A stretch of 36,839 bases of DNA from Akkermansia muciniphila (GTDB lineage: Bacteria; Verrucomicrobiota; Verrucomicrobiia; Verrucomicrobiales; Akkermansiaceae): the NCBI GenBank assembly GCA_945901795.1, contig CAMDLP010000030.1, positions 1-36,839 on the forward strand, in the 5' to 3' direction. Below, piece by piece: positions 4,340 through 36,839 of the stretch (position 1 is the stretch's first letter; every line of letters begins with the position of its first letter). The notes under the pieces were generated by a model. It had not been told where the DNA came from. It saw only the letters and a program-made list of their open reading frames with translations, and did not search any database. Both the position numbers and the translations under genes were made by a program.

Positions 4340-5335
4340 TTAAAGTTGCTTCAGCCGGTTTTTCCGCAGCAAATTCAGCCAGCGCTCGATGTCCTTGAAA
4401 ATGACCTCCTTTTTCTCGTCATACATCAGCAAGTGGTAGGCCTGCGGGTAGTTGTGATAGGTTTTCGAGACCCCCGACGGAATCCGGGCGACGAAGCCGC
4501 GGACGTCGGAATCGTTGTTGAAATAGTCCTTTCCGCCGTGCAGGACGAGGCTCGGCGAGCGGAAAGTGGACGCGCAGGCGTTCATGTTTTCAATCAGCCC
4601 GGCAAGCGCGCCGATCATCCGCAAGGTGTATTGCTCGATGGCGTAGGGATTCTTTTTGCTCTGCTCCGCGTGATGGGATGTCTGGGTCATTTGCACGTCC
4701 TGACCACCGGCGAGGGTTTCCAGGGAAATCCGGGCGAGCGGGAGCGTGGTCGCCGCGATTTGCACCAAGCCCGGCGTCCACGCGGGAATGTCGTCGCGGA
4801 ATCGAACGATCGGCGAGGACAGGATCAGGCCGTCGCAAGGCGGATCGCCGACAGGTGACTCGCGCCAGGCATGCGCGGCGATGAGCGCGCCCATGCTTTC
4901 GCCAAACCACACGATTTTCGCATCCGGATGCTGCTCCTGCACCAGTTGGGTGAAGGCGAACAAATCGTGATACCAGTCCTTCGGATCGCCGATGTCGCCG
5001 CGTCGTTCGCGGATCGGATCGCTGCCTTGGCCGCGGACCTCGTAAGCGTAAAGCCCGGTGGCAGGCTGGTATTGGAGAAGATGGTTGCCGAGGTTGGCGT
5101 AGTCGCTGGAAGCACCGCTGAAACCGTGAATCCCGATGAGCACCACGTCAGGCTCGGTGGTTTCTGAAATCCACTTGCGATAACCGAAACGATCGACTTT
5201 CGCCTCGAGCGCGGACTTGGCTCCCGGCGGTTTCTGGTGGTTCACCAGCGTGTATTGAGGAGCGCACGCGACCCCAAAAAGCGCCACCACGCAGGCGGCG
5301 AACCTGCTGATTTTGGAAACCGTAAATCGTGACAC
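4340..5335 (-). CDS. Exported or membrane-tethered alpha/beta hydrolase (monoacylglycerol lipase-like)
   Basis: The protein has the Hydrolase_4 / serine aminopeptidase S33 fold. The oxyanion-hole region is GIHGFSGASSDYANLG, the nucleophile elbow GESMG, the acid probably the Asp in GGKDYFNNDSD, and the catalytic His the one in YPQAYHLLMYDE. YEVRGQGSD matches the D-x-R-G-x-G-x-S region of monoglyceride lipases. The substrate is probably a lipid ester or lysophospholipid. I chose the GTG at 5335 because it puts a signal-like segment (SRFAACVVALFGVACAPQ) at the N-terminus. The Cys there could be lipidated, though the lipobox is imperfect. ATGs at 5377 and 5425 give longer forms, but the longest would cover the promoter-like DNA of the divergent gene. 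The next gene downstream is rpmB, 80 bases away. Confidence 0.87.
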   Translation of the reverse strand: MSRFTVSKISRFAACVVALFGVACAPQYTLVNHQKPPGAKSALEAKVDRFGYRKWISETTEPDVVLIGIHGFSGASSDYANLGNHLLQYQPATGLYAYEVRGQGSDPIRERRGDIGDPKDWYHDLFAFTQLVQEQHPDAKIVWFGESMGALIAAHAWRESPVGDPPCDGLILSSPIVRFRDDIPAWTPGLVQIAATTLPLARISLETLAGGQDVQMTQTSHHAEQSKKNPYAIEQYTLRMIGALAGLIENMNACASTFRSPSLVLHGGKDYFNNDSDVRGFVARIPSGVSKTYHNYPQAYHLLMYDEKKEVIFKDIERWLNLLRKNRLKQL

Positions 5336-5444: not shown

Positions 5445-5472
5445 CATGCGATCGGTCCAAACTCCTGTTTTT

Positions 5473-8400
5473 ATGAAAAGCCACCTCCCCGTCATCGCCG
5501 CGATCCTGTCCATCCCGCTGGCCGCGTCCGCCGCTCCCCGACTGGTCGTTTCCACTCCGTCGCTGGTCCCGGAATCGCAAATCGACCTCGTCATCGACTC
5601 GCCCGCCATCGCCATTTCCGAACTCGGAAAAACCACCGACAACACCTGGCTCGACATCCTGCCCGCGTTGCCCGGCAAGCTGCGGTGGAAGGCGCAGAAC
5701 ATCGCGCAATTTATTCCCGCGCAAGCTCCGGCGATCGGCGCGACTTACACGTTTTCGATCCCGAAAAACCACACCCATCTCGACCAGTCCGCCGTCCCCG
5801 CCGGGAAATTCGCCACGCTCACCAGCGATCCGTTCCGCGTCATCACCGCCAACGCCCCTAACCGCTGGTCATCGGACTACTCGCCCTCAACTGGCGCGTG
5901 GCTGATCGTTTTCAACGACGCCGTCGATCCCGCGGCCGCCGCGGCGTTTGTCTCGTTCAGCTCGAATTCCGGCCAGCGCGTCGCCGCCCGCCTCGAGCCC
6001 GCCACCGTCGAGCGCGCCGGTTATTATGCCAACCAATACAAGCCGTGGGCGGCGAGATTTCCTAACCACGTCACTCCCGAAACCACGCCCGAGAGCCCGG
6101 CACCTAACATTATCGTCGCCACGCCCGTCTCACCACTTCCCGTCGGCAACGGCTGGGAGGTCTCCGTGCTCAAGAACCTGCCCAATCTATCCACCACCGC
6201 CCGCCTCGCCGAAGACAGCGGCTATGAAATCGGCAAAATCGAGCCCTTCAAAATCGCCGACATCAAACCGCGAGTCGCCGCCGATAAGCCCCGCCGGGTG
6301 ATCATCCACCTCAACCAATCCGCCCCGGAAAAACTGCCGGCAGACTTTCTGGAAACCTGCATCGAGATCTCCCCGCGCCCGGAAAATCTCCGGGCCGAGG
6401 CCGACGGACGGGAGATCGAACTTTCCGGAAATTTCTCCGACGACGACACCTACACGGTCACTCTCAAGCCCCCCTTCACCTCCAGGGGCGGCCTCCAACT
6501 CGCCGGCGCATTGGCCAAGAAAATCACCTTCGAGCACCTCAAGCCGCACATCGCGTTTCCATCCGAGGACGTCGGCCAACTTGCTAACGGAAACCGCAAA
6601 TACCGGATGCTCACCCTCAATCTGGAGAGCGCCCGCGTCCGCATCAAGAAACTCGCCGGCGCCGATCTCATCCGCGCCTTCCAAGGCTACCGCCATTTCA
6701 CCGGCAACGGGCCTAACGGCGAATCGATCCGACCCACCGCCCTCGTTCCCTATCCGTTGATCGTCGGCACCCCCGTCGCGGATCTGGAAATCCCCCTCGG
6801 CAACCCGATCGACACCACCAAAATCATCACCTTGAATTGGGATGAAGTCCTTCCCAAAGACACGCGCTACGGCGTGCTTTTCGTCGATGCCTCGGGAAAA
6901 TGCCACGCGACTTGCGACACCGAGAACCGCCCGACAACTCAGGCGATCCTCCAACTAACCGACATCGGCCTCGCCTGGAAGCTGACCTCGCAGGAGGCCA
7001 TGATCTACGCGTTTTCCTGCGACACCGGCGCGCCTCTTCCCGGCGTGAAACTCCAACTTTACGGCGAGGACGCCGCCGCGCTCGAGTCCGCCAGCACCGA
7101 CGCCTCCGGGCTCGCCACAATTCCCCGCTCCGAGGCCGTCCGCCACCTCCACGCGTCGCTCGGCGCAGACAGCTACCTAACCGCGTTCGACTCCTCGCTC
7201 GAAACCGTCGGCCTCTGGCATTTCCCGGTCCGCTACACTTGGAACAACCCCGCCGAAGCCCCGCGCAAAGCGTTCCTCTTCACCGACCGCTCGCTTTACC
7301 GCCCCGGCGAAACCGTCCGCGTCAAAGGCATCGTCCGCACCCAGCGCGGCAACGCCATCGAGCCCGCGAAACCCGGCCCGGCGCGCGTCGTCATCATTGA
7401 TCCCACCGAGAAGGAAATCCACACCCGTCCCGTCACGATCTCAGAAAATGGCTCCTTCGATTTCACCTACCCGCTGCCGTCCGGAAAAACCGGCACCCAC
7501 CTGATCCGCCTCGAATACCCCGAGGAACTCGCCGAAGCCGCAGCGCTCGAGGACCAGTGGCAAAAACAAGAAGCCCTCCTCGCCAGCGCCCGCTTCGAGA
7601 TTCCGCTGCGCGTCGAGGAGTTCCGCCGCAACGCCTTCGAGGTCGTGCAAACCATCCCCACGCCCGCGCCCGGCGCCGCTAACATTTCCGTGGATCTCAC
7701 CGCTAAATATTACCAAGGCCAGCCCGTCGCCGCCGGCCAGGTAAAATATTTCAGCCGCGTCACCGCGCAAAACCCCTACCCCGAGCGCTTCCGGGATTTC
7801 CTCTTCGGAAACCACCGCACCAATGACTGGGCCTACTGGTATCACTACTTCGGCTACCGCGACGAGGAAGGCTCCGAAGCCCAAATCTCTCAGAACCAAG
7901 GCGAGACCCTGCTTTCCGCCGACGGCAAGGCCTCTCTATCCGTCGCCATCCCGCAGGCGGAATTCCCGACCTCCCGCGAAGTCGTCATTTCCTCCGAGGT
8001 CACCGATGCGAACCACCAAACACTAACCTCCGCCGCCACCACCACGGTGCATCCCGCGAGTGTTTACGTCGGCGTTTCCAGAATCGACAGCCTCGTCCGC
8101 GCGGGCGACGCAGTGCCGCTGAAAATCGTCGCCATCGACCCTAACGGCGAGCCCTTTCCCGGTGCCGTGAAAGTCACCGCCACGCTCACCCGCGAGGTGA
8201 ATTCCGCGGTGAAATCCCGCATGGATTCCGGCGCGACGACCACGCGAAACAACGTCGAGGAGGAAACCATCTCCACCACCGAACTCAGCCTCGACCCCGC
8301 CGCTTCCGCCGGACAAGGCGCCGCCCTAACCGTCACACCCAAGTCCAACGGCCGCCACTTCCTCACCCTCCGCGGCACCGACCCGGACGGCCGCGCCTTC

Positions 8401-11199
8401 GCCACCGTCACCCATTTCCATGTCTATGGAACCCACGAATTCCCGTGGCTCTATGAAGACGGCTTGCGTGTGAAAATGGTCGCCGAGAAGAAATCCTACA
8501 AGCCCGGCGAGACCGCGCGCCTGCTCGTCCTCACGCCCATCGAAGGCACCGCCCTCGTCACCGTGGAGCGCGAAAAAGTCCTCCGCACCTTCTCCGTCCA
8601 GCTCAAGGCCGACAAGCCCGTCATCGAAGTTACGCTCACCGCCGACGACGCGCCTAACGCATTCGTCTCCGTCCTCATCGTCAAGGGTGCCAAGGAATCC
8701 GCCCGCGAGCTCAAGGAGCCGCAGCTCCGCCTCGGCTACTGCGAACTCATCGTGGAAAACCTCCGCGACACGCTCGCCGTGAAGCTCGAAACACCCGCGC
8801 CGTCCTACCGCCCCGGCGACGAAGTCACGCTGACGGGCAGCATCAGCCTCGCCGACGGCAAGCCCGCCGCCGGCGCCGAGGTCACCTTTTACGCCGAAGA
8901 CGAAGGCACGCTCGCCGTCATGGGCTACGAGACGCCGAAGCCCATGGACTACTTTTACACGCCCCGCAACCTCGACGTGGAGTCCGGCACCTCCTTCCAG
9001 ACCTTCATCTCCGAAGACCCGGAAAAGCAATATTTCTCCAACAAGGGATTCTTCATCGGCGGCGGTGGCGACCTCGCCAAACTCGCCGATCTCCTGCGGA
9101 AGAATTTCGATCCCTGCGCCACCTGGGCGCCCGCGCTCGTCACCGATGCCGCCGGAAAATTCAGCCACACCTTCAAGCTTCCCGACACGCTCACCCGCTA
9201 CCGCCTCATCGCCGTCGCCCATCAGAACGCCGCCAGATTCGGTCACGCCGAGTCGTCCATCGTCGTGAAAAAAGACCTGATGCTGGAGCCTAAAACCCCG
9301 CGCTTCGCCAACCAGTCGGACACCTTCAACACGCAGGTCCTCGTCCAGAACGCCTCCACCTTCACCGGCACCTGGGAGATCAAATTCAGCACCGCCAGCG
9401 GCTCTGAAACTCCCTGCGCCGTTCCCACCAGCTCCACCACCGAGACGGTCACGCTTGCCCCCGGCGCGGCGACCACCGTCATCTTCCCCACCCGCGCCGA
9501 AAGCACCGGGGAAGCCGTTCTCACTTTCCAAGCCACTCCGGTTTCCCTCAGCGGCGGCGAGCTAACACCCGTCCTCAAACGCAATCTGTCCGACGCCGTC
9601 GAAGCCCGCTTCCCCGTTCAATACCCGATGCCGCTACTCCGCCAGATGAAGCTCGTCAATCTCGACAAGCCGGGCGTGAAGCAGGACCTCCGCAGCCACC
9701 TCGACGCGAAATTGCTAGACGGCAGCGGAGAGATCGACCTCGAATTCTCACGCTCCCCGCTCGTCGAGGCCGGCGGATCCGTCGATTTTCTCCTCCACTA
9801 TCCGTACGGCTGCATCGAGCAATCCACCTCCTCGCTGATCCCGTGGCTCACCGTGGAGGAACTCAGACCGGTCATCCCGAGCTTCGCGAAAATTCCGGAG
9901 AAAAAAGTCAAAACCGCCATCCAGGCCGGAGCCGACCGCTTACTCTCGATGCAACTGCCCGACGGCTCGTTCTGCTACTGGCCCGGCGGCACCACACCCG
10001 CACCATGGGCCACCGCCTACGCCGGCATGGGCCTGATGTTAGCCGCGGAAAAAGGCGCCAATGTCCCGGATTCCGCCATCGAGTCGCTCAAGAAGAACCT
10101 CATCGAAAGCCTGCGCGGCATCGCCGCCGAGAAATCCGCCCAAGCACTCGAAACCCACGCCCGCGCCCTGCTCGTCCTCGCGCTCGGCGGAACGCCGCAG
10201 CCTGCCTATCGAAACTCGCTCGTCGACCGCATCGCCGAGCTAACACCCGCTGCCCGCTGCCTGCTCGCCACCGCCATCGCCGCCGAGGAGAAAGGCAACC
10301 CAGCCAATCTCACCATCGCGAAATCCGTCCTCACCTCCAAAGTCGCCTTCAAGCTCAAGAACGACGATTGGATGCCCTGGTCCGCCGATGACGCCTACAA
10401 CCTCATCGCCTGGCTGGCCGTCGATCCCCAAGGACCGGAACCCACCAAGGCCCTCGACCGCATGCTCCACGAGCGCAATCCCTACGGCCACTGGCGCACG
10501 ACCTGGGCGAACGGCTGGAGCCTCCTCGCCATGGCCGGATACGCCGAAAACCAGCAACTCAGCGACCAGCCCGTCAATCTAACGATCGAAACCGCGACCG
10601 GCACGGAAACGATTTCCCTCACCCGGGATCAGCCCGCCGCCGCGCGTTCCTTCAAGCTCACGCCCGATCTCAAGCTCGCACTCACCGCCGACCAAAGCGC
10701 CTTCGTCCGGCTGAAAATCGCCGCCAAACCGCAGATCGCGCCGATCCAGCCCGTCGCAACTAACGGCCTTTCCATCGACCGCATCTACGAGCGGGTCAAC
10801 GCCGACGGCTCCGCGCAAATCCTGACAGAACCGCAGGTCGGCGACCTCATCCGCGTCTCGCTCCGCGTCACCCTGCCCAAGGACAACACGCGCTACCTCG
10901 TCATCGAGGACCCGCTGCCATCGCTTTTTGAAACCGTCAACACCGACTTCAAATCCCAGCGCGCCGCCGTCGGCATCCGCACCAGTGAGAACGATTGGAA
11001 CGTCAGCCACTCGGAACTCCGCAGCGACCGCGCCGCGTTTTTCCTCGATGAGGTCTGGCAGAAAGGCACCTACACCCTCACCTACCTCGCCCGCTGCACC
11101 GTCGCCGGCCAAGCCACCGCCCCGCCCGCCAAGGTCGAGTCGATGTATGACCCGGAAAATTTCGCCCTCTCCGCCTCACGGGTATTCACCACGAAGTAG
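5473..11199 (+). CDS. Bacterial alpha-2-macroglobulin family protein with thioester
   Basis: This 1908-residue exported protein belongs to the alpha-2-macroglobulin family (E. coli YfhM/ECAM group), which traps proteases in the periplasm. The ATG at 5473 opens a type I signal peptide (MKSHLPVIAAILSIPLAASA, cleavage after about residue 20). No lipobox is present, so unlike E. coli YfhM it is not obviously lipid-anchored. An MG2-type domain begins near residue 600 (FLFTDRSLYRPGETV). The A2M domain lies near 1190-1260 (ATWAPALVTDAAGKF, FKLPDTLTRYRLIAVAH). The thioester motif YGCIEQS has Cys at about 1447 and is followed by the alpha-helical thioester domain (LPDGSFCYWPGG, WATAYAGMGL) to about 1710. 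The C-terminal receptor-like MG domain contains GDLIRVSLRVTLP. The intact CxEQ implies a working covalent trap. PbpC, its usual partner, is not next door; a foldase gene follows after 22 bases. Confidence 0.95.
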   Translation: MKSHLPVIAAILSIPLAASAAPRLVVSTPSLVPESQIDLVIDSPAIAISELGKTTDNTWLDILPALPGKLRWKAQNIAQFIPAQAPAIGATYTFSIPKNHTHLDQSAVPAGKFATLTSDPFRVITANAPNRWSSDYSPSTGAWLIVFNDAVDPAAAAAFVSFSSNSGQRVAARLEPATVERAGYYANQYKPWAARFPNHVTPETTPESPAPNIIVATPVSPLPVGNGWEVSVLKNLPNLSTTARLAEDSGYEIGKIEPFKIADIKPRVAADKPRRVIIHLNQSAPEKLPADFLETCIEISPRPENLRAEADGREIELSGNFSDDDTYTVTLKPPFTSRGGLQLAGALAKKITFEHLKPHIAFPSEDVGQLANGNRKYRMLTLNLESARVRIKKLAGADLIRAFQGYRHFTGNGPNGESIRPTALVPYPLIVGTPVADLEIPLGNPIDTTKIITLNWDEVLPKDTRYGVLFVDASGKCHATCDTENRPTTQAILQLTDIGLAWKLTSQEAMIYAFSCDTGAPLPGVKLQLYGEDAAALESASTDASGLATIPRSEAVRHLHASLGADSYLTAFDSSLETVGLWHFPVRYTWNNPAEAPRKAFLFTDRSLYRPGETVRVKGIVRTQRGNAIEPAKPGPARVVIIDPTEKEIHTRPVTISENGSFDFTYPLPSGKTGTHLIRLEYPEELAEAAALEDQWQKQEALLASARFEIPLRVEEFRRNAFEVVQTIPTPAPGAANISVDLTAKYYQGQPVAAGQVKYFSRVTAQNPYPERFRDFLFGNHRTNDWAYWYHYFGYRDEEGSEAQISQNQGETLLSADGKASLSVAIPQAEFPTSREVVISSEVTDANHQTLTSAATTTVHPASVYVGVSRIDSLVRAGDAVPLKIVAIDPNGEPFPGAVKVTATLTREVNSAVKSRMDSGATTTRNNVEEETISTTELSLDPAASAGQGAALTVTPKSNGRHFLTLRGTDPDGRAFATVTHFHVYGTHEFPWLYEDGLRVKMVAEKKSYKPGETARLLVLTPIEGTALVTVEREKVLRTFSVQLKADKPVIEVTLTADDAPNAFVSVLIVKGAKESARELKEPQLRLGYCELIVENLRDTLAVKLETPAPSYRPGDEVTLTGSISLADGKPAAGAEVTFYAEDEGTLAVMGYETPKPMDYFYTPRNLDVESGTSFQTFISEDPEKQYFSNKGFFIGGGGDLAKLADLLRKNFDPCATWAPALVTDAAGKFSHTFKLPDTLTRYRLIAVAHQNAARFGHAESSIVVKKDLMLEPKTPRFANQSDTFNTQVLVQNASTFTGTWEIKFSTASGSETPCAVPTSSTTETVTLAPGAATTVIFPTRAESTGEAVLTFQATPVSLSGGELTPVLKRNLSDAVEARFPVQYPMPLLRQMKLVNLDKPGVKQDLRSHLDAKLLDGSGEIDLEFSRSPLVEAGGSVDFLLHYPYGCIEQSTSSLIPWLTVEELRPVIPSFAKIPEKKVKTAIQAGADRLLSMQLPDGSFCYWPGGTTPAPWATAYAGMGLMLAAEKGANVPDSAIESLKKNLIESLRGIAAEKSAQALETHARALLVLALGGTPQPAYRNSLVDRIAELTPAARCLLATAIAAEEKGNPANLTIAKSVLTSKVAFKLKNDDWMPWSADDAYNLIAWLAVDPQGPEPTKALDRMLHERNPYGHWRTTWANGWSLLAMAGYAENQQLSDQPVNLTIETATGTETISLTRDQPAAARSFKLTPDLKLALTADQSAFVRLKIAAKPQIAPIQPVATNGLSIDRIYERVNADGSAQILTEPQVGDLIRVSLRVTLPKDNTRYLVIEDPLPSLFETVNTDFKSQRAAVGIRTSENDWNVSHSELRSDRAAFFLDEVWQKGTYTLTYLARCTVAGQATAPPAKVESMYDPENFALSASRVFTTK

Positions 11200-29655: not shown

Positions 29656-32388
29656 TCAATGGCGCGCGGCCAGAGCCCGACCGGTGGGCGACTTTTCATT
29701 CTTCCGAATCACCGATGGCGGGCCTTCCGCGACAAGGGTTCCACCGTGGATTCCCCCGCCCGGCCCGAGCTCGATCACCCAGTCGGAAGCGGCGATCACG
29801 TCCAGATGGTGCTCCACCACCAGCACGCTGTGGCCCGCGTCGCGCAGTTTGAGAAACGCGGTCAATAATTTTTCGACGTCGCCGAAATGCAGCCCGGTTG
29901 TCGGCTCGTCGAAGAGATACAACGTGTGCGGCGCCTGCGGTTTCGCCAGTTCCACCGCCAGCTTCAGGCGTTGCGCCTCGCCGCCGGAAAGCGTGTTCGC
30001 TGGCTGGCCAAGCTGCAAATAACCGAGCCCAAGATCCTCCAGCGTTTCCAAAATCCGGTGAATTTTCGGAATCGGCCGGAAAAAAGCCCGCGCCTCGCTC
30101 ACGGAAAGCGCAAGCACCTCGGCGATGGATTTCCCTTTATAAGTCACCTCCAGCGTCTCGCGATTGAACCGCCGCCCGTTGCAAGCCGGACACGGCACCC
30201 ACGCGTCCGGCAGGAAATGCATCTCGATTTTCAACCGCCCGTTCCCTTGGCACCGCTCGCAGCGCCCGCCCGCCGCGTTGAAACTGAAGCGCCCCGGCCC
30301 ATAGCCGCGTTGTTTCGACAAATTCAGCTTGGTGAAAAGATCCCGCACCAGATCGAACACCCCGGTGAACGTCGCCGGATTCGACCGCGGACTTCTCCCG
30401 ATCGGCGACTGGTCCGCCACCACGCATTTCTCGATCAACTCCAGCCCATCAATGGCGTCATGCCTCCCCGGAGCCTCACCCGAGCCATTGAAATACCGCC
30501 CCAGCGCCCGCCGCAAAATGTCATCCGCCAGCGTGGATTTCCCGCTGCCGCTCGGCCCGCTCAAGCACACCAACCGCCCCAGCGGAATCACAACATCCAG
30601 GTTCCGCAAATTATGCTCCCGCGCCCCTCGGATGACCAACTGCCCGCATTCTTCTCTCTTCTCTGTCCACTGCTCACTGATCACTCGGCACTTATTCCTC
30701 AACCACTCCCCCGTCGGCGAATCAATCTCCCCCGGCACCCCCGCCGCCAGCAACTCCCCACCCGCCGCACCCGCACCCGGCCCGATATCAATCAGCCAAT
30801 CCGCCGCACGGATGATCTCCTCGTCGTGCTCCACCACCACCACCGTATTTCCCAAATCCCGCAACCGCGTCAGCGCCCCGATCAACCGCGCCGTGTCCGC
30901 CGCGTGCAGCCCGATGCTCGGCTCGTCCAGCACGTAAATCACCCCGGAAAGCCCCGCGCCCAGCTGCGTCGCCAGCCGGATCCGCTGCGCCTCGCCGCCG
31001 GAAAGCGTCCCGCTCGTCCGTTGCAGCGTCAGGTAATCCAGCCCCACCTCCACCAGGAACGCCAACCGCGCCCGCACATCGCTTGCCAGCCGCTTGCAAA
31101 CCTCCGCCTTGCCCGCCTCAAACTCAATCCCGTCCATCCACCGCATCGCATCCGCCACCCCCAGCTCGCAAAAATCCTGAATCCCCAACCACCCTCCTGC
31201 ATCTTCCCTCTCTTCCCTCTCTTCCCTCTCTTCCCTTCGACGTTCGATGTTGAGCGTTCGATGTTCGATGTTCCCTCCCTGAATTTTCACCGCCAGCCAC
31301 TCCGGCTTCAACCTCTTCCCTCCACAAACCCCACACGGCCGGTGCGCCATGAACCTCGCCAGCTTCCGCCGCGTGATCTCCGACTTCGCCTCGCGATACC
31401 GCCTCAAAGTCTTCTCCGCATCCTCCCCCTCGCCTAGCAGCGCCGGGTCGCAAAACATTTCCGTCCCCAGCCCTTCGCACGCCTCACACGCCCCGAGGTG
31501 CGAGTTGAACGAAAAATGCTTCGGCGAAAGCTCTACCACCACAAACCCCGTCCGTGGATTCCGATAACTCGTCTGAAACGCCAGATCCCGCCACGCATCC
31601 CCGCCCGGTTCCTGCACCGCCGCCCGCGCCTCCGCCCCGCAAAGCCGCAACGCCGTTTCCACCGAATCCGCCAGCCGCGATTCCACCCCCGGCCGGATCA
31701 CAAACCGGTCCACCACGATCTCCACCGCCGCCGGAAACTCCGGCCATTTCGCCGCCGCTTCCTCGATTTCCAACACCTCCCCGTCCACCCGCACCCGGAT
31801 GTATCCCTGCCGCCGCAAGTCACCTAACAACCTCGCTGGCTCGCCCAGCTCCTCCTTCGGCAGCGGTGCTAACAAAACCACCTTCGTCCCCTCCGCCATC
31901 GCCGCCAGCACGTTCACGATGTCCGCCGCGCTCATCCGCTCCAACCGCTCGCCCGTCTCCGGATCGTGCGGAATCCCCGCCGCCGCCCACAGCACCCGCA
32001 GGTAATCGTAAATCTCCGTCGCCGTCGCCACCGTCGAGCGCGGGTTCAGCCCGCCGCCCCGCTGCTCGATCGCGATCGCCGGGCTCAGCCCCTCGATCGA
32101 ATCCACATCCGGCTTCTCCAATTGATCCAAAAACTGCCGCGCATAGACCGACAGCGATTCCACATACCGCCGCTGCCCCTCCGCATACAGCGTGTGAAAT
32201 GCCAGCGACGATTTCCCCGAGCCACTGGGCCCCGTGATCACCACAAGCTTCCCCCGCGGGATGTCCACATCGATATTCTTCAAATTATGCTGCCGTGCCC
32301 CACGGATTCGGATCGCGTCCACCCCATCAGGAAGAAGTGTGGAGCGCGGAATGGCGAGCGCGGAATAAAGATAAGATCCTAAGTCCAC
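29656..32388 (-). CDS. uvrA: Excinuclease ABC subunit A (UvrA)
   Basis: This 910-residue damage-recognition ATPase of nucleotide excision repair has two ABC modules. Walker A motifs are [12 protein letters not shown] and [12 protein letters not shown]; signature motifs are [12 protein letters not shown] and [12 protein letters not shown]; Walker B segments are [13 protein letters not shown] and [12 protein letters not shown]. The C-terminal zinc module is intact (CERCQGNG and [15 protein letters not shown]). In the N-terminal module only the second pair is present ([10 protein letters not shown]); where other UvrAs have a CPxCG pair this one reads YRNPRTGF, so that zinc is probably missing. 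Two segments look like invaded repeat DNA: 31203-31281 and perhaps 30647-30697. The start is a GTG at 32388, preceded by GGGGG. Typical UvrA is about 940 residues. Confidence 0.95.
31203..31281 (-). repeat. Dispersed-repeat DNA inside uvrA, read in frame
   Basis: On the coding strand a stretch of AACATCGA/GAACGCTC-type 8- to 9-base units is followed by four copies of a 9-base purine unit (AGAGGGAAG; CTTCCCTCT on the plus strand at 31203-31237). It encodes [14 protein letters not shown] followed by [10 protein letters not shown], which other UvrAs lack at this place, between the CGGKRL zinc region and the second half of the signature domain. The 9-base unit keeps the frame at any copy number. 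I recall the NIEHRT peptide as a common translation of intergenic repeats in Verrucomicrobiota and Planctomycetota. Confidence 0.8.
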
Positions 32389-32698: not shown

Positions 32699-33148
32699 TC
32701 AAATTGTTGGATAGAGTGATTTGAGTTTGATGCGGGCTTTTTCGTTGATGAACTGCCAGTTGATCGAATTGGATTCCTCATTCTTCCGGGCGAGATAGGC
32801 TTTCACTTCGTTGGTGAATTCCCCGACCGAGCCGATCCTTCGATCCAGACAGGCGGCGAAATCCAACGCAGTGCGGCGTCCGTCGCCACCCACGAAGACA
32901 TCACGTCTTCCCAAATGCGGCATGGCGATCATGAATCCACTCACGCTGCCCTCGCGGACGTATTCGTAGTCCTCCCGGGCGAGGTGCCCAGGGATCGCTG
33001 CAACAGGGGCGCGTGTTTCAGACAGGAGTTGTGTGGCGAATTCATCCAGACAAACTAACGGACGATCCTGTCGCGGCGCTCTGGAATAGACCTCCAGCAC
33101 GTCTTCCATCGCCGCTACGAAGGAGGCGTTTTGCTTGGGTGGGATGCA
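32699..33148 (-). pseudogene. IS630-family transposase remnant with its catalytic core deleted
   Basis: The reading frame matches IS630 transposases from CIPPKQNASFVAAMEDVLEVYS (33148 inward, partly before the ATG at 33109) through VCLDEFATQLLSETRAPV, which holds the first catalytic Asp, to RRTALDFAAC. It then jumps directly to LDRRIGSVGEFTNEV and runs to the normal end, INWQFINEKARIKLKSLYPTI, shown only as a landmark. In intact relatives about 90 residues lie at this junction, containing the second Asp (VMDNLNTH) and the Glu (WLNMAEIE). The N-terminal helix-turn-helix half is also missing. It is a doubly deleted remnant that cannot catalyse transposition. Upstream it abuts ATCAGTAATCAGTG repeat DNA. 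Confidence 0.85.
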
Positions 33149-33207: not shown

Positions 33208-36200
33208 TCAGGGAGCCTGCACCACTTTCACGCGGGCGAAGGTGGGTTTCTGCGAACCGCTTGGAGTCAGGATGAAATCCACGAAGGGCACGCTCATGGC
33301 GTTGATCGTGCCGTCCGTGGCGACCTGCACGGGTGGATTGGTTCCGTCGTTGTTATCCACCCAGGCATCCAGGCCCGCGCTGAACTGCACCGTGTAGGTC
33401 AGACCGGCAGCCACGTAGTCGGCGCGCCGACCGAACACCATGGAATAAGTGCCAGCCGCCGCGACGATCTTGGGAGCGCCCGGTGTGGTGAGTGTTCCGC
33501 CCGAATAGACGATTTCACCGGTTGACACCGTCGGCTGGGTGCCGAAGGCGTATTCCTGGAGGTTGTTCAAGCTGTCGCCGTCGTTGTTGCCAGCCGGGTT
33601 GCTGACATCTGTGGGAAGGTAGCCATTGGCCCAGGTGGAGTAGGGTGAGCCCGAGTCGGCGTAGGGATACCTGACGATCACGATGCCCGAGCCGCCGTTG
33701 CCGCCTGATCTGCTCGCCCCACCGCCACCGCCGCCACCGCCTGTATTGGCGACACCGTTCGTCCCGACGTCCGCTCCCGAACCGCCGCCCCCGCCACCCA
33801 ACCCAGCGCTTCCCACTGTAGCGCTGCCATAACGAGATAGCCTACCGCCGCTACCCCCGCCCCCAAACCAGCCCGCCGGCGACCCGGCCACAGGGGCAAA
33901 CACCGTATATTCCGCACCCGCGCCGCCGGCCCCGGTCACCGAAGAGCTTGCCGCACCGCCCGCGCCTCCCTTGCCGCCGCCGCCGCCGCCGCAATAATTA
34001 GGATCGATTTGGTAACCGGAAGCCCCGTTGGATCCCTGCCCAGCCGTTCCGTTTCCAGGTCCCTTGTCACTGCTGCCGCCGCCACCGGAACCACCCGTCG
34101 CGCCAACCGGACCGTAGTCACGCGCCGCTCCACCGCCGCCTCCGAGAACCGACACCGAACCAAAGCTCGAGTTGCCGCCACTGCTGGGCGTAAATGAGCT
34201 GTTGTAGACCTTGGCCAGTCCGCCAGTCCCCACCGTGACTGTCGTGCTCCCGGCCGCCACGGCATACGACGGCGTATAGACGATCCCGCCTGCACCGCCG
34301 CCGCCCCCGGAGTGTGCACCGCCCGCACCGCCACCACCCACCACCAGCACGTCGGCGCTGGCGGGAACCGGGATATTAAGCGTGCCGCTGTTGGTGAACG
34401 TGTGGACCACATAGCCGCCGATATAGGGTGTCAAGGCAACGGGATTCAACCCGTTGGAGTCCGTATACGTGATCGTTCCGCCGGAACCGGAATTGCCGGG
34501 CGGGACCACTACCGTAATGGTCGTGTCATCCAGTATGGCCGGAGTCGTGGCCAGGGCATTGCCCATGGTGTCATTCAGCACGGCGCCGACATTGACCATG
34601 AGCTGGAGTGTTCCGTCGCCGGTCGCCGTGACCGGCACGGTGAAGACCCCCGAAGTGGGCGTGGTCTCGGTGACCGTGCCGATGGTGACGGCCGCAGTGC
34701 CCGCGTTGCCGAAGACAGTGGCGTCAACCGTGCTCGCGTCCATGTCCTCGCTGAAGGTCACCGTGTAGGTCACCAGGGCGGGTGTCATGACCGTGCCGCC
34801 GCTCTTATCATCGACGATGCTCGTGAGCGTCGGCGGGGTGGCATCGACCGTGATCGTCGTGTCGTCAAGAATGGCCGAGGTGGTGTCCAAGGGATTGGTC
34901 GCGAGATCCGTCAGGCCCGCACTCTGATTGACCTGGAGCTGGAGGAGTCCGCCGCTCAGCGTGGCCTCCACGGTGAAGACCGCGGGAGAGATCTGGCTGA
35001 CCGTGCCGATGGTGACGGCCGCGCCGCCCGCGTTGCCGAAGTCACCGGCGTCAACCGTGCTCGCGTCCATGTCCTCGCTGAAGGTCACCGTGTAGGTCAC
35101 CAGGGTGTTCGCGGCAATGATGGGCCCGCCACTCTTGTTATCGACGATGCTGACCAGCGTCGGCGGGATGGTGTCGTTGACCGTGATCGTCGTATCATCC
35201 GGGATGGCCGAGGTGGTGTCCAGGGCGTTGCCCGCGACGTCCTTCAGGACGGCATTTTGATTGACCCGGAGAATGAGGGTGCCGATGGTGGTCGGGGTGA
35301 CCGGCACGGTGAAGACCCCGGGGGAGGGCTCGGTGACCGTGCCGATGGTGACGGCCGCAGTGCCCGCATTGCCGAAGGAGGCGGCGGAAACCGTGCTCGC
35401 GTCCATGTCCTCGCTGAAGGTCACCGTGTAGGTCACCAAGGTGTTCCGTTCGACCGGACCGCCGCTCTTGTCATCAACGATGCCGCTGCCGGCCAGCGTC
35501 GGTGCGGTGCCATCGACCGTGATCGTCGTGTTGTCAGGAAGGGCCGAGGCGGTGTCCAGCGGGGTGCTGTCGGCGTCGTTCAGGACGGCATTTTGATTGA
35601 CCTGGAGAATGAGGGATCCGTCGGTGGTCGGGGTGACCGGCACGGTGAAGACCCCGGGGAGGGTCTCGGTGACCGTGCCGAAGCTGATCGTCGCACTGCC
35701 CGCATTGCCGAAGTCGCTGGCGGAAACCGTGCTCGCGTCCATGTCCTTGTTGAAGGTCACCGTATAGGTCACCAGGGTGTTCGGGACAATGGGCCCGCCA
35801 CTCTTGTTATCGACGATACTGACCAGCGTCGGCGGGGCACCGAGGAGGGCGTAGGGATACTTGACGATCACGATGCCCGAGCCGCCGGAGCCGCCTGATT
35901 TGCTGATCCCACCGCCGCCGCCGCCGCCGCCTGTATTGGCGACACCGTTCGTCCCGACGTCCGCTCCCGAACCGCCGCCCCCGCCACCCAACCCAGCGCT
36001 TCCCACTGTAGCGCTGCCATAACCAGATAGCCAACCGCCGCTACCCCCGCCCCCAAACCAGCCCGCCGGCGACCCGGCCACAGGGGCAAACACCGTATAT
36101 TCCGCACCCGCGCCGCCGGCCCCGGTCACCGAAGAGCTTGCCGCACCGCCCGCGCCTCCCTTGCCGCCGCCGCCGCCGCCGAGATAAGGACCACCGCTGT

Positions 36201-36756
36201 AGCCGGTATTTCCATCATTTCCCTGCCCGCTTGTTCCGATTGCTGCCGGCCTGTCACTGGAGCCACCGCCACCGGAACCACCCGTCGAAGCGGAACCAGA
36301 GTCACGTTTTGCTCCACTGCCGCCTCCGGTCGCCGTCAACAAACCAAAGCTCGAGTCGCCGCCTCTCACGAGATTATCGGCCATACTGCCTACGGCGCCA
36401 GTCCCCACGCTCACGCTGTAAGGCGAACCAGCCACAACGGGAAATGCATTACTGTAGATCACGCCGCCTGCGCCGCCGCCCCCCCCGGAGTGTGCACCGC
36501 CCGCGCCGCCGCCTGCCACCACCAGCACGTCGGCGTTGACCGCGGAGGAGTTGGAATAGATGCCGTCGTTGGTGAACGTGTGGACCACATAGCCGCCGAT
36601 ATAAGGCGGATTGGCAACGGGATTCAACCCGTTGGAGTCCGTGTACATGATCGTTCCGCCGGAACCGGTATTATCAGCGGCCATGGACGGCCCGGCCGTG
36701 AAGAAAGCCAGCGCCGCGCAGGCGATGCCCAGGATGTTGATGCGGTTCGTCTGCAT
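33208..36756 (-). CDS. Large exported Gly-rich protein with four Ig-like repeats
   Basis: This is a 1182-residue protein. A signal peptide is at 1-26 (MQTNRINILGIACAALAF... ending PSMA). Gly-rich module 1 spans about 30-303: ADVLVVAGGGAGGAHSGGGG through GSGIVIVKYPY. Four Ig-like repeats lie at about 304-750, each with LVTYTVTFSEDMDASTV, FGNAG, TIGTVTE and DDTTITV. Gly-rich module 2 is at about 755-1032. The C-terminal domain (about 1035-1182) carries WANGYLPTDVSNPAGNNDGD and NNLQEYAFGTQP, as in many verrucomicrobial exported proteins. No PEP-CTERM or other sorting tail is seen. The ATG at 36756 is preceded by AGGAGG with no spacing; a TTG at 36774 is the alternative. The likely role is adhesion or cell-surface/extracellular matrix, by inference only. 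Confidence 0.9.
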   Translation of the reverse strand: MQTNRINILGIACAALAFFTAGPSMAADNTGSGGTIMYTDSNGLNPVANPPYIGGYVVHTFTNDGIYSNSSAVNADVLVVAGGGAGGAHSGGGGGAGGVIYSNAFPVVAGSPYSVSVGTGAVGSMADNLVRGGDSSFGLLTATGGGSGAKRDSGSASTGGSGGGGSSDRPAAIGTSGQGNDGNTGYSGGPYLGGGGGGKGGAGGAASSSVTGAGGAGAEYTVFAPVAGSPAGWFGGGGSGGWLSGYGSATVGSAGLGGGGGGSGADVGTNGVANTGGGGGGGGISKSGGSGGSGIVIVKYPYALLGAPPTLVSIVDNKSGGPIVPNTLVTYTVTFNKDMDASTVSASDFGNAGSATISFGTVTETLPGVFTVPVTPTTDGSLILQVNQNAVLNDADSTPLDTASALPDNTTITVDGTAPTLAGSGIVDDKSGGPVERNTLVTYTVTFSEDMDASTVSAASFGNAGTAAVTIGTVTEPSPGVFTVPVTPTTIGTLILRVNQNAVLKDVAGNALDTTSAIPDDTTITVNDTIPPTLVSIVDNKSGGPIIAANTLVTYTVTFSEDMDASTVDAGDFGNAGGAAVTIGTVSQISPAVFTVEATLSGGLLQLQVNQSAGLTDLATNPLDTTSAILDDTTITVDATPPTLTSIVDDKSGGTVMTPALVTYTVTFSEDMDASTVDATVFGNAGTAAVTIGTVTETTPTSGVFTVPVTATGDGTLQLMVNVGAVLNDTMGNALATTPAILDDTTITVVVPPGNSGSGGTITYTDSNGLNPVALTPYIGGYVVHTFTNSGTLNIPVPASADVLVVGGGGAGGAHSGGGGGAGGIVYTPSYAVAAGSTTVTVGTGGLAKVYNSSFTPSSGGNSSFGSVSVLGGGGGAARDYGPVGATGGSGGGGSSDKGPGNGTAGQGSNGASGYQIDPNYCGGGGGGKGGAGGAASSSVTGAGGAGAEYTVFAPVAGSPAGWFGGGGSGGRLSRYGSATVGSAGLGGGGGGSGADVGTNGVANTGGGGGGGGASRSGGNGGSGIVIVRYPYADSGSPYSTWANGYLPTDVSNPAGNNDGDSLNNLQEYAFGTQPTVSTGEIVYSGGTLTTPGAPKIVAAAGTYSMVFGRRADYVAAGLTYTVQFSAGLDAWVDNNDGTNPPVQVATDGTINAMSVPFVDFILTPSGSQKPTFARVKVVQAP
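33659..33991. repeat. Internal direct repeat, copy in Gly-rich module 2
   Basis: This segment repeats at 35849-36181, offset by 2190 bases. Over 33740-33991 I see only two differences from 35930-36181 in 252 bases; the first 80 bases (33659-33739) differ more. Such near-identity in third codon positions suggests recent duplication or gene conversion. Confidence 0.85.
35849..36181. repeat. Internal direct repeat, copy in Gly-rich module 1
   Basis: This is the partner of 33659-33991. Downstream (toward the N-terminus) the two modules diverge, with different loops between the GGGG runs, so homogenisation is confined to this part. A shared start segment (GGYVVHTFTN) is similar in both modules but less conserved at DNA level. 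Confidence 0.85.
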
Positions 36757-36839
36757 CCTCCTGTTTGCCGCCAAGGCGATGGCGGGGATTTTCCCTTGGG
36801 GAGGGTGAACGAGTGAACTCCACCGGGCGAACCGGCGGG

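Follow-up and report, generated by a model that had tools for sequence, protein, structure and literature searches.

The gene at 33208..36756, on the minus strand, raises the question of how two glycine-rich modules of a single exported protein came to share a stretch of nearly identical DNA inside sequence that has otherwise diverged. The window (the whole stretch of DNA that was analysed) is an entire contig of 36,839 bases from a 3.28-Mb genome in 120 contigs, with a completeness of 95.39. Our preferred answer, to which we give a probability of approximately 0.7, is that the gene product is a secreted bivalent adhesin, probably bound to the surface, and that an old duplication of its module was followed by intragenic conversion of a tract of about 255 bp. 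The case for conversion is built on the assembled contig of one genome of the species.

Gene layout and genomic context

The window gene is predicted to encode an exported protein of approximately 1,182 amino acids, based on its open reading frame and its translation from an ATG at 36756; the original prediction had called this protein giant, which is wrong at such a length. An AGGAGG motif abuts this ATG on its 5' side, at a spacing closer than usual. Translation might alternatively begin at a TTG at 36774, and the reading frame runs open as far as the contig end.

In order, the protein consists of a signal-peptide-like start (36679..36756, recognized by eye from the translation), a first Gly_rich_2 module (35848..36657, ORF residues 61-330), four Ig-like units (34510..35835), a second Gly_rich_2 module (33658..34479, ORF residues 787-1060) and a C-terminal tail (33211..33657), all read from the minus strand. 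Both modules were identified with Pfam PF21722 and with our own profile; the Pfam match scores 122.7 bits against a gathering cut-off of 24.3 and falls in two stretches, as it does within module 1. The Ig-like units, delimited by splitting and pairwise comparison, lie at 35506-35835, 35167-35505, 34837-35166 and 34510-34836. Big_5 (PF13205) passes its gathering cut-off (31.8 bits versus 23.6) in three stretches for these four units. A search of the protein against NCBIfam gave no match. The tail of 149 amino acids has matches (E 1e-4) in 58 of the 73 genomes of the genus, up to 46 in a single genome and often in ORFs of more than 1,000 amino acids. It has no Pfam name at the threshold used, and a structure search with it returned chance-level matches only (E 0.8); it is possibly a sorting or anchoring domain.

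Ten other ORFs of the window were scanned. Three are without a Pfam match, and those with a Pfam name (UvrA, EF-G-like, SecY, L2, M24 peptidase, alpha-2-macroglobulin and hydrolase) are cellular, which places the window gene outside a group of phage genes. The ORF at 5446-11199 (1,917 amino acids) has the domains of a bacterial alpha-2-macroglobulin. The ORF at 32699-33109, just downstream of the window gene, has a look that we took to be that of a transposase fragment; this candidate was rejected, as the ORF has no Pfam match at 1e-4 and occurs at one place in the genome. The uvrA gene (29656-32388, minus strand) carries an in-frame, repeat-like insert at 31201-31274 that starts with GGAACATCGAACATCGAAC. 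With up to 2 mismatches, 33 genomic sites match this 19-mer (17 forward and 16 reverse, some of them overlapping), compared to 0 for a backward control, and at least five plus/minus pairs are spaced at 70-88 bases, a pattern resembling that of dispersed hairpin elements of the REP type.

A near-identical tract within the two modules

The near-identity that drew attention to this locus is confirmed, with exactly 2 mismatches in 252 bases between 33740-33991 and 35930-36181; these blocks lie, as described, within the two Gly_rich_2 modules of one minus-strand ORF with the four Ig-like units between them. The full tract extends over 255 bases (33737..33991 in module 2 and 35927..36181 in module 1, both minus strand), with the same 2 differences (33834 and 33843) and with exact matches of 97 and 148 bases. 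Its border at 33991 is sharp, identity falling off immediately past that base, and the opposite border tapers, with 9 differences in the 79 bases of 33658-33736. The modules as a whole, where they can be aligned, differ at 146 of 822 sites. A second island of identity is found at the start of module 1 (36561..36672, minus strand), where 112 bases are 90% identical to 34383-34494. Inside the 252-base block, the two residue changes are W/R and G/R, both situated between glycine runs.

A distance of 2190 bases, divisible by 3, separates the two copies of the tract; recombination joining them would therefore keep the reading frame. Among the ORFs examined, no deletion variant joining the copies was seen. 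A one-module ORF of 456 amino acids does exist (L062), with a tail that is not clearly related to that of the window protein (blastp E 1.2). The block was also considered as a mobile or multi-copy sequence, and this was rejected because the genome holds only two copies.

Short-read assemblers have trouble with exact repeats in the length range seen here (97 and 148 bases), and the main rival to conversion is that such an assembler took wrong paths at the repeat, so that the block of one module was placed in the other as well. We consider this doubtful. The frame is open across both copies, each copy has flanks of its own on either side, and two bases inside the tract are not the same; an artefact would thus require two wrong joins and, in addition, separate differences. 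What keeps the artefact under consideration, besides the length of the exact runs, is the fragmentation of the genome into 120 contigs, the location of the gene at the end of its contig, and L037, a contig from another genome that stops shortly after such a module begins. This last contig makes plausible the earlier remark that these repeats can collapse assemblies. In L037 (3711-4169), the last 424 aligned bases match Ig-like unit 4 and the start of module 2 at 86% identity, and the N-terminal part of the L037 protein looks different from that of the window protein. The contig end was also considered as a possible repeat, but its last 140 bases do not match strongly anywhere else in the genome.

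Silent-site divergence and the order of events

The strongest evidence for copying comes from silent sites. In the 84 codons of the block there are 0 synonymous differences in 73.7 synonymous sites, and 2 nonsynonymous differences. In the 163 codons that precede the block in the same module pair, pS is 0.347 and pN is 0.255; in the 27 codons after it, pS is 0.117. The first 20 codons of the two modules have a pS of 0.065, in agreement with the 112-base island described above. At a pS of 0.347, the chance of zero silent change in the block is about 2e-14, and the 95% upper bound of pS in the block is 0.04, some eight-fold below the value of the preceding part. A silent-site run test with shuffled codons gave p 5e-5, the floor of 20000 shuffles. 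The maximum-segment test at the nucleotide level likewise reached its floor (p 0.0002 with 5000 shuffles), but it is significant (p 0.005 or less) in 8 of 8 module comparisons and does not discriminate; the silent-site test is therefore preferred. The block is a patch of excess identity, silent sites included, inside otherwise diverged homologues. A recent duplication of the whole module is ruled out by the silent divergence outside the block. The rest of the module pair has diverged as originally described; the Ig-like units, which had been described in the same terms, are only moderately diverged (pairwise pS 0.21-0.35).

The kinship of the modules gives the order of events. In a 49-row protein tree of whole modules, the two window modules are sisters with support of 100/99, and they still pair, with moderate support, when the block is removed (preceding part only, with a smaller panel; SH-aLRT 88.7, bootstrap 92). 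FastTree on the part before the block also recovers the pairing (0.94). In that part the two modules are 61% identical at the protein level, compared to a maximum of 54% (module 1) or 58% (module 2) with any other of 42 modules. In the block their protein identity is 98%, and the maximum to any other module of the panel is 57-59%. For these trees and counts, profile matches covering less than 70% of the profile were left out, as were repeated loci of the window's own contig, and L061 (the same gene as L087) was excluded before the run comparison described below and the 49-row tree.

Since the modules are sisters without the block and the block is identical at silent sites, the sequences point to an old duplication and a later copying of the tract of about 255 bp, which is probably intragenic gene conversion. 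The second module would have arisen by the old duplication; much later, the tract, which lies in the distal half of the module, would have been copied between modules by homologous recombination without crossover, plausibly RecA-type conversion, leaving it identical at silent sites and the rest of the pair diverged. Neither a close outgroup of the block nor an allele of it that had escaped conversion, either of which could tell donor from recipient, was found. The original prediction had offered recent duplication or ongoing gene conversion of a sub-region, and it stands in its conversion form, as an old pair with one recently homogenised tract; the word ongoing goes further than the evidence from this gene.

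A third, unsampled copy, elsewhere in the genome or in another cell, might instead have given the tract to both modules. Approximately 5% of the genome may be missing, which leaves room for such a donor; a search of the assembly with an 801-base query gave the two copies plus a match of 35 bases and nothing else, and no long near-identical copy of the block is present among 73 genus genomes. Some match to the module occurs in 32 of these 73 (the window's own genome included), and the longest elsewhere in the genus is about 216 bases at 75%, located in the part before the block. We regard a third copy as improbable, and conversion between the two window modules remains the preferred reading.

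Other genes with two modules

Seven ORFs with two full modules were compared: the window gene, L082-L086 (all from one bin, G076) and L087 (from G002). The longest run free of silent differences is 76.3 sites in the window modules (p 0.0005, the floor of this test), followed by 44.3 sites in L084 (p 0.0005, floor), 15.3 in L086 (p 0.22), 14.8 in L085 (p 0.0005, floor), 13.3 in L082 (p 0.031), 11.0 in L083 (p 0.29) and 3.0 in L087 (p 0.95). The run is at the shuffle floor in 3 of the 7 ORFs, one of these runs (L085) being short. The partner module is the best match in 4 of the 7 (L082, L083, L084 and the window gene) and is not in L085, L086 and L087. Homogenisation is therefore frequent without being universal, and no other ORF of the seven shows it as strongly as the window gene. 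Patches in L084 and L086, which belong to another assembly, also speak against a mis-join as the source of the window tract.

A gene near L086 on the same contig has a module that shares a 34.5-site run with the second L086 module (p 0.0005) and a 20.5-site run with the first (p 0.020). These shared runs suggest that copying may also act between genes, and the longer of them lends something to the idea of a third copy discussed above.

As a control, 150 of 430 eligible inter-ORF module pairs were compared, using modules of more than 100 bits only and 200 shuffles each. The longest run free of silent differences was 12.0 sites and median pS was 0.66. In 8 of the 150 pairs p was 0.01 or less, which is more than 1% and indicates that mild clustering arises without conversion. 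This clustering and the constrained composition of a Gly-rich region speak for a reading in which selection on protein or RNA keeps the block constant at the DNA level with no copying involved. The run of 76.3 sites in the window against 12 in the control, the median pS of the inter-ORF pairs, and the maximum of 57-59% protein identity between the block and any other panel module all argue against such selection, and silent constraint is, on these sequence comparisons, very unlikely to be the cause of the identity.

Under concerted evolution, the modules of one gene should be closer to each other than to the modules in the same position of a gene with the same layout. L083 and L084 share their layout and allow this comparison, whereas for the window gene the search gave no complete relative of the same layout. 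In L083 and L084, Ig-like units 1 and 2 match best by position and unit 3 does not. The informative sites of the module body group 71 times by gene, 12 times by position and 3 times otherwise; 9 of the 12 position-wise sites are within the first 32 informative sites, six of them consecutive, and a four-residue indel common by position adjoins them. The clustering of these sites has p 0.009 in a cusum test and again p 0.009 in a Fisher test whose split was set post hoc. Little weight is placed on the three remaining quartets of the four, at p 0.026-0.044, one of which has a single position-wise site. L083 and L084 thus appear to form a mosaic of the kind that repeated conversion predicts, with modest statistics.

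Gly_rich_2 is present in 19 of 61 genus genomes (E 0.001) and in 20 of 260 family genomes (E 1e-6). The same-genus bin G076 (L082-L086 and L119-L126) is 12.6 Mb in size and has 22 Gly_rich_2 matches, the next highest of the other 60 genomes having 5; its size suggests that it is a composite bin. Between the modules, the spacer is Big_5 in the window gene, what we take by eye to be another Ig-like repeat in L083 and L084, and, in L082, L085 and L086, repeats that by eye resemble Listeria-Bacteroides repeats. L039 was considered as a second case and left out of the count: its repeat (1824-1956 and 5119-5251, 133 bases at 99% identity) lies upstream, 5' of two adjoining ORFs with Gly-rich modules.

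As a tentative and wider possibility, the genus may have secreted two-tip proteins built around a swappable spacer (three kinds, by eye), in which recurrent intragenic conversion would keep the tips of one protein matched and those of different proteins would diverge. Such a protein would be a bivalent adhesin with ends that evolve in concert.

Predicted fold and likely role

The module was modelled with AlphaFold2 (five sequences) as a beta-sandwich of fair confidence with a poorly modelled Gly-rich part (mean pLDDT 54.5, pTM 0.62; residues 120-236 below 50). In VIA-align, the best match of this low-confidence model is the Pam3 fibre 7ypx (Z 15.0, rmsd 3.2 Å over 188 residues, 30% identity), followed by the mycobacteriophage Bxb1 tail tip (Z 12.3). 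The glycine-rich domains of ALK/LTK reach Z of up to 7.5, in a range where a match may mean little. The top match in Foldseek is also the Pam3 fibre (E 3.8e-5), and 239 viral models match the module fold at E 0.001 or better. At the sequence level, both modules are matched by PHROG 2295, which has no assigned function, and the Pam3 fibre is matched only at E 0.77. A search of module 2 against phage sequences gave no match, and 600 pattern hits in viral contigs yielded none that was confirmed. Two partial plasmid matches at 69% were found in Azospirillum.

By analogy with such fibres, and given the two-module layout, the window gene probably encodes an adhesin that carries two tips; its surface location and adhesion are inferred. 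The W/R and G/R changes may sit where the loop of a fibre tip would be, judging from these two changes. At this locus the silent-site signature is clean, in an uncultured bacterium and in modules that resemble phage-fibre tips, which provides a simple test of how adhesins of this type conserve or alter the ends that bind. Caution is also called for, as short-read assemblies of genes of this type may break or mis-join.

Comparison with known systems

Intragenic gene conversion is a well-known kind of process; its setting in this protein is little studied. Gly_rich_2 is not named in the open-access literature searched, in which we found nothing on these proteins and no paper joining intragenic gene conversion, bacteria, repeat and surface protein.

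Segmental conversion in antigenic variation (PMC4534519), including MgPa of Mycoplasma genitalium (PMC2169797), resembles the present case in that short tracts are copied between related sequences. As described in these sources, such systems draw on donors outside the expressed gene and create variants, whereas here two expressed modules become alike. The original prediction had suggested that the repeat can generate antigenic or adhesive variants, and this is not supported: the modules become more alike, and the assembly has no further near copy (801-base query). Antigenic or phase variation by cassette exchange, for which the use of segmental gene conversion by pathogens is a precedent (PMC4534519; PMC2169797), is extremely improbable here, as both copies are in one translated frame, the event makes them alike and not varied, and the same query found no silent donor copy in this 95% complete genome.

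The tail fibre gp24 of cyanophage Pam3 (7ypx, 7yfw; PMC9608196) has a TNF-like part combined with a glycine-rich tip, an architecture to which the low-confidence model of the window module may correspond. In the account of gp24 there is one tip per phage fibre subunit; the window protein, exported and encoded on the chromosome, has two modules.

The spider aciniform silk gene AcSp1 is similar in that repeats within one gene are alike at the DNA level, a homogeneity that its authors ascribe to intragenic concerted evolution together with constraint (PMC3933166). The AcSp1 repeats are reported to be more than 98% identical over the whole array; here, in a bacterial host, the identity is that of a 255-base patch in two separated modules. 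The ice-binding adhesin MpAFP, one of the large bacterial adhesins with near-identical Ig-like repeats, is likewise an exported protein with repeated Ig-like units and repeat identity (PMC4083281). As described there, MpAFP has about 120 tandem identical repeats, whereas in the window protein it is the two separated Gly-rich modules that have parts alike, and the Ig-like units between them have diverged.
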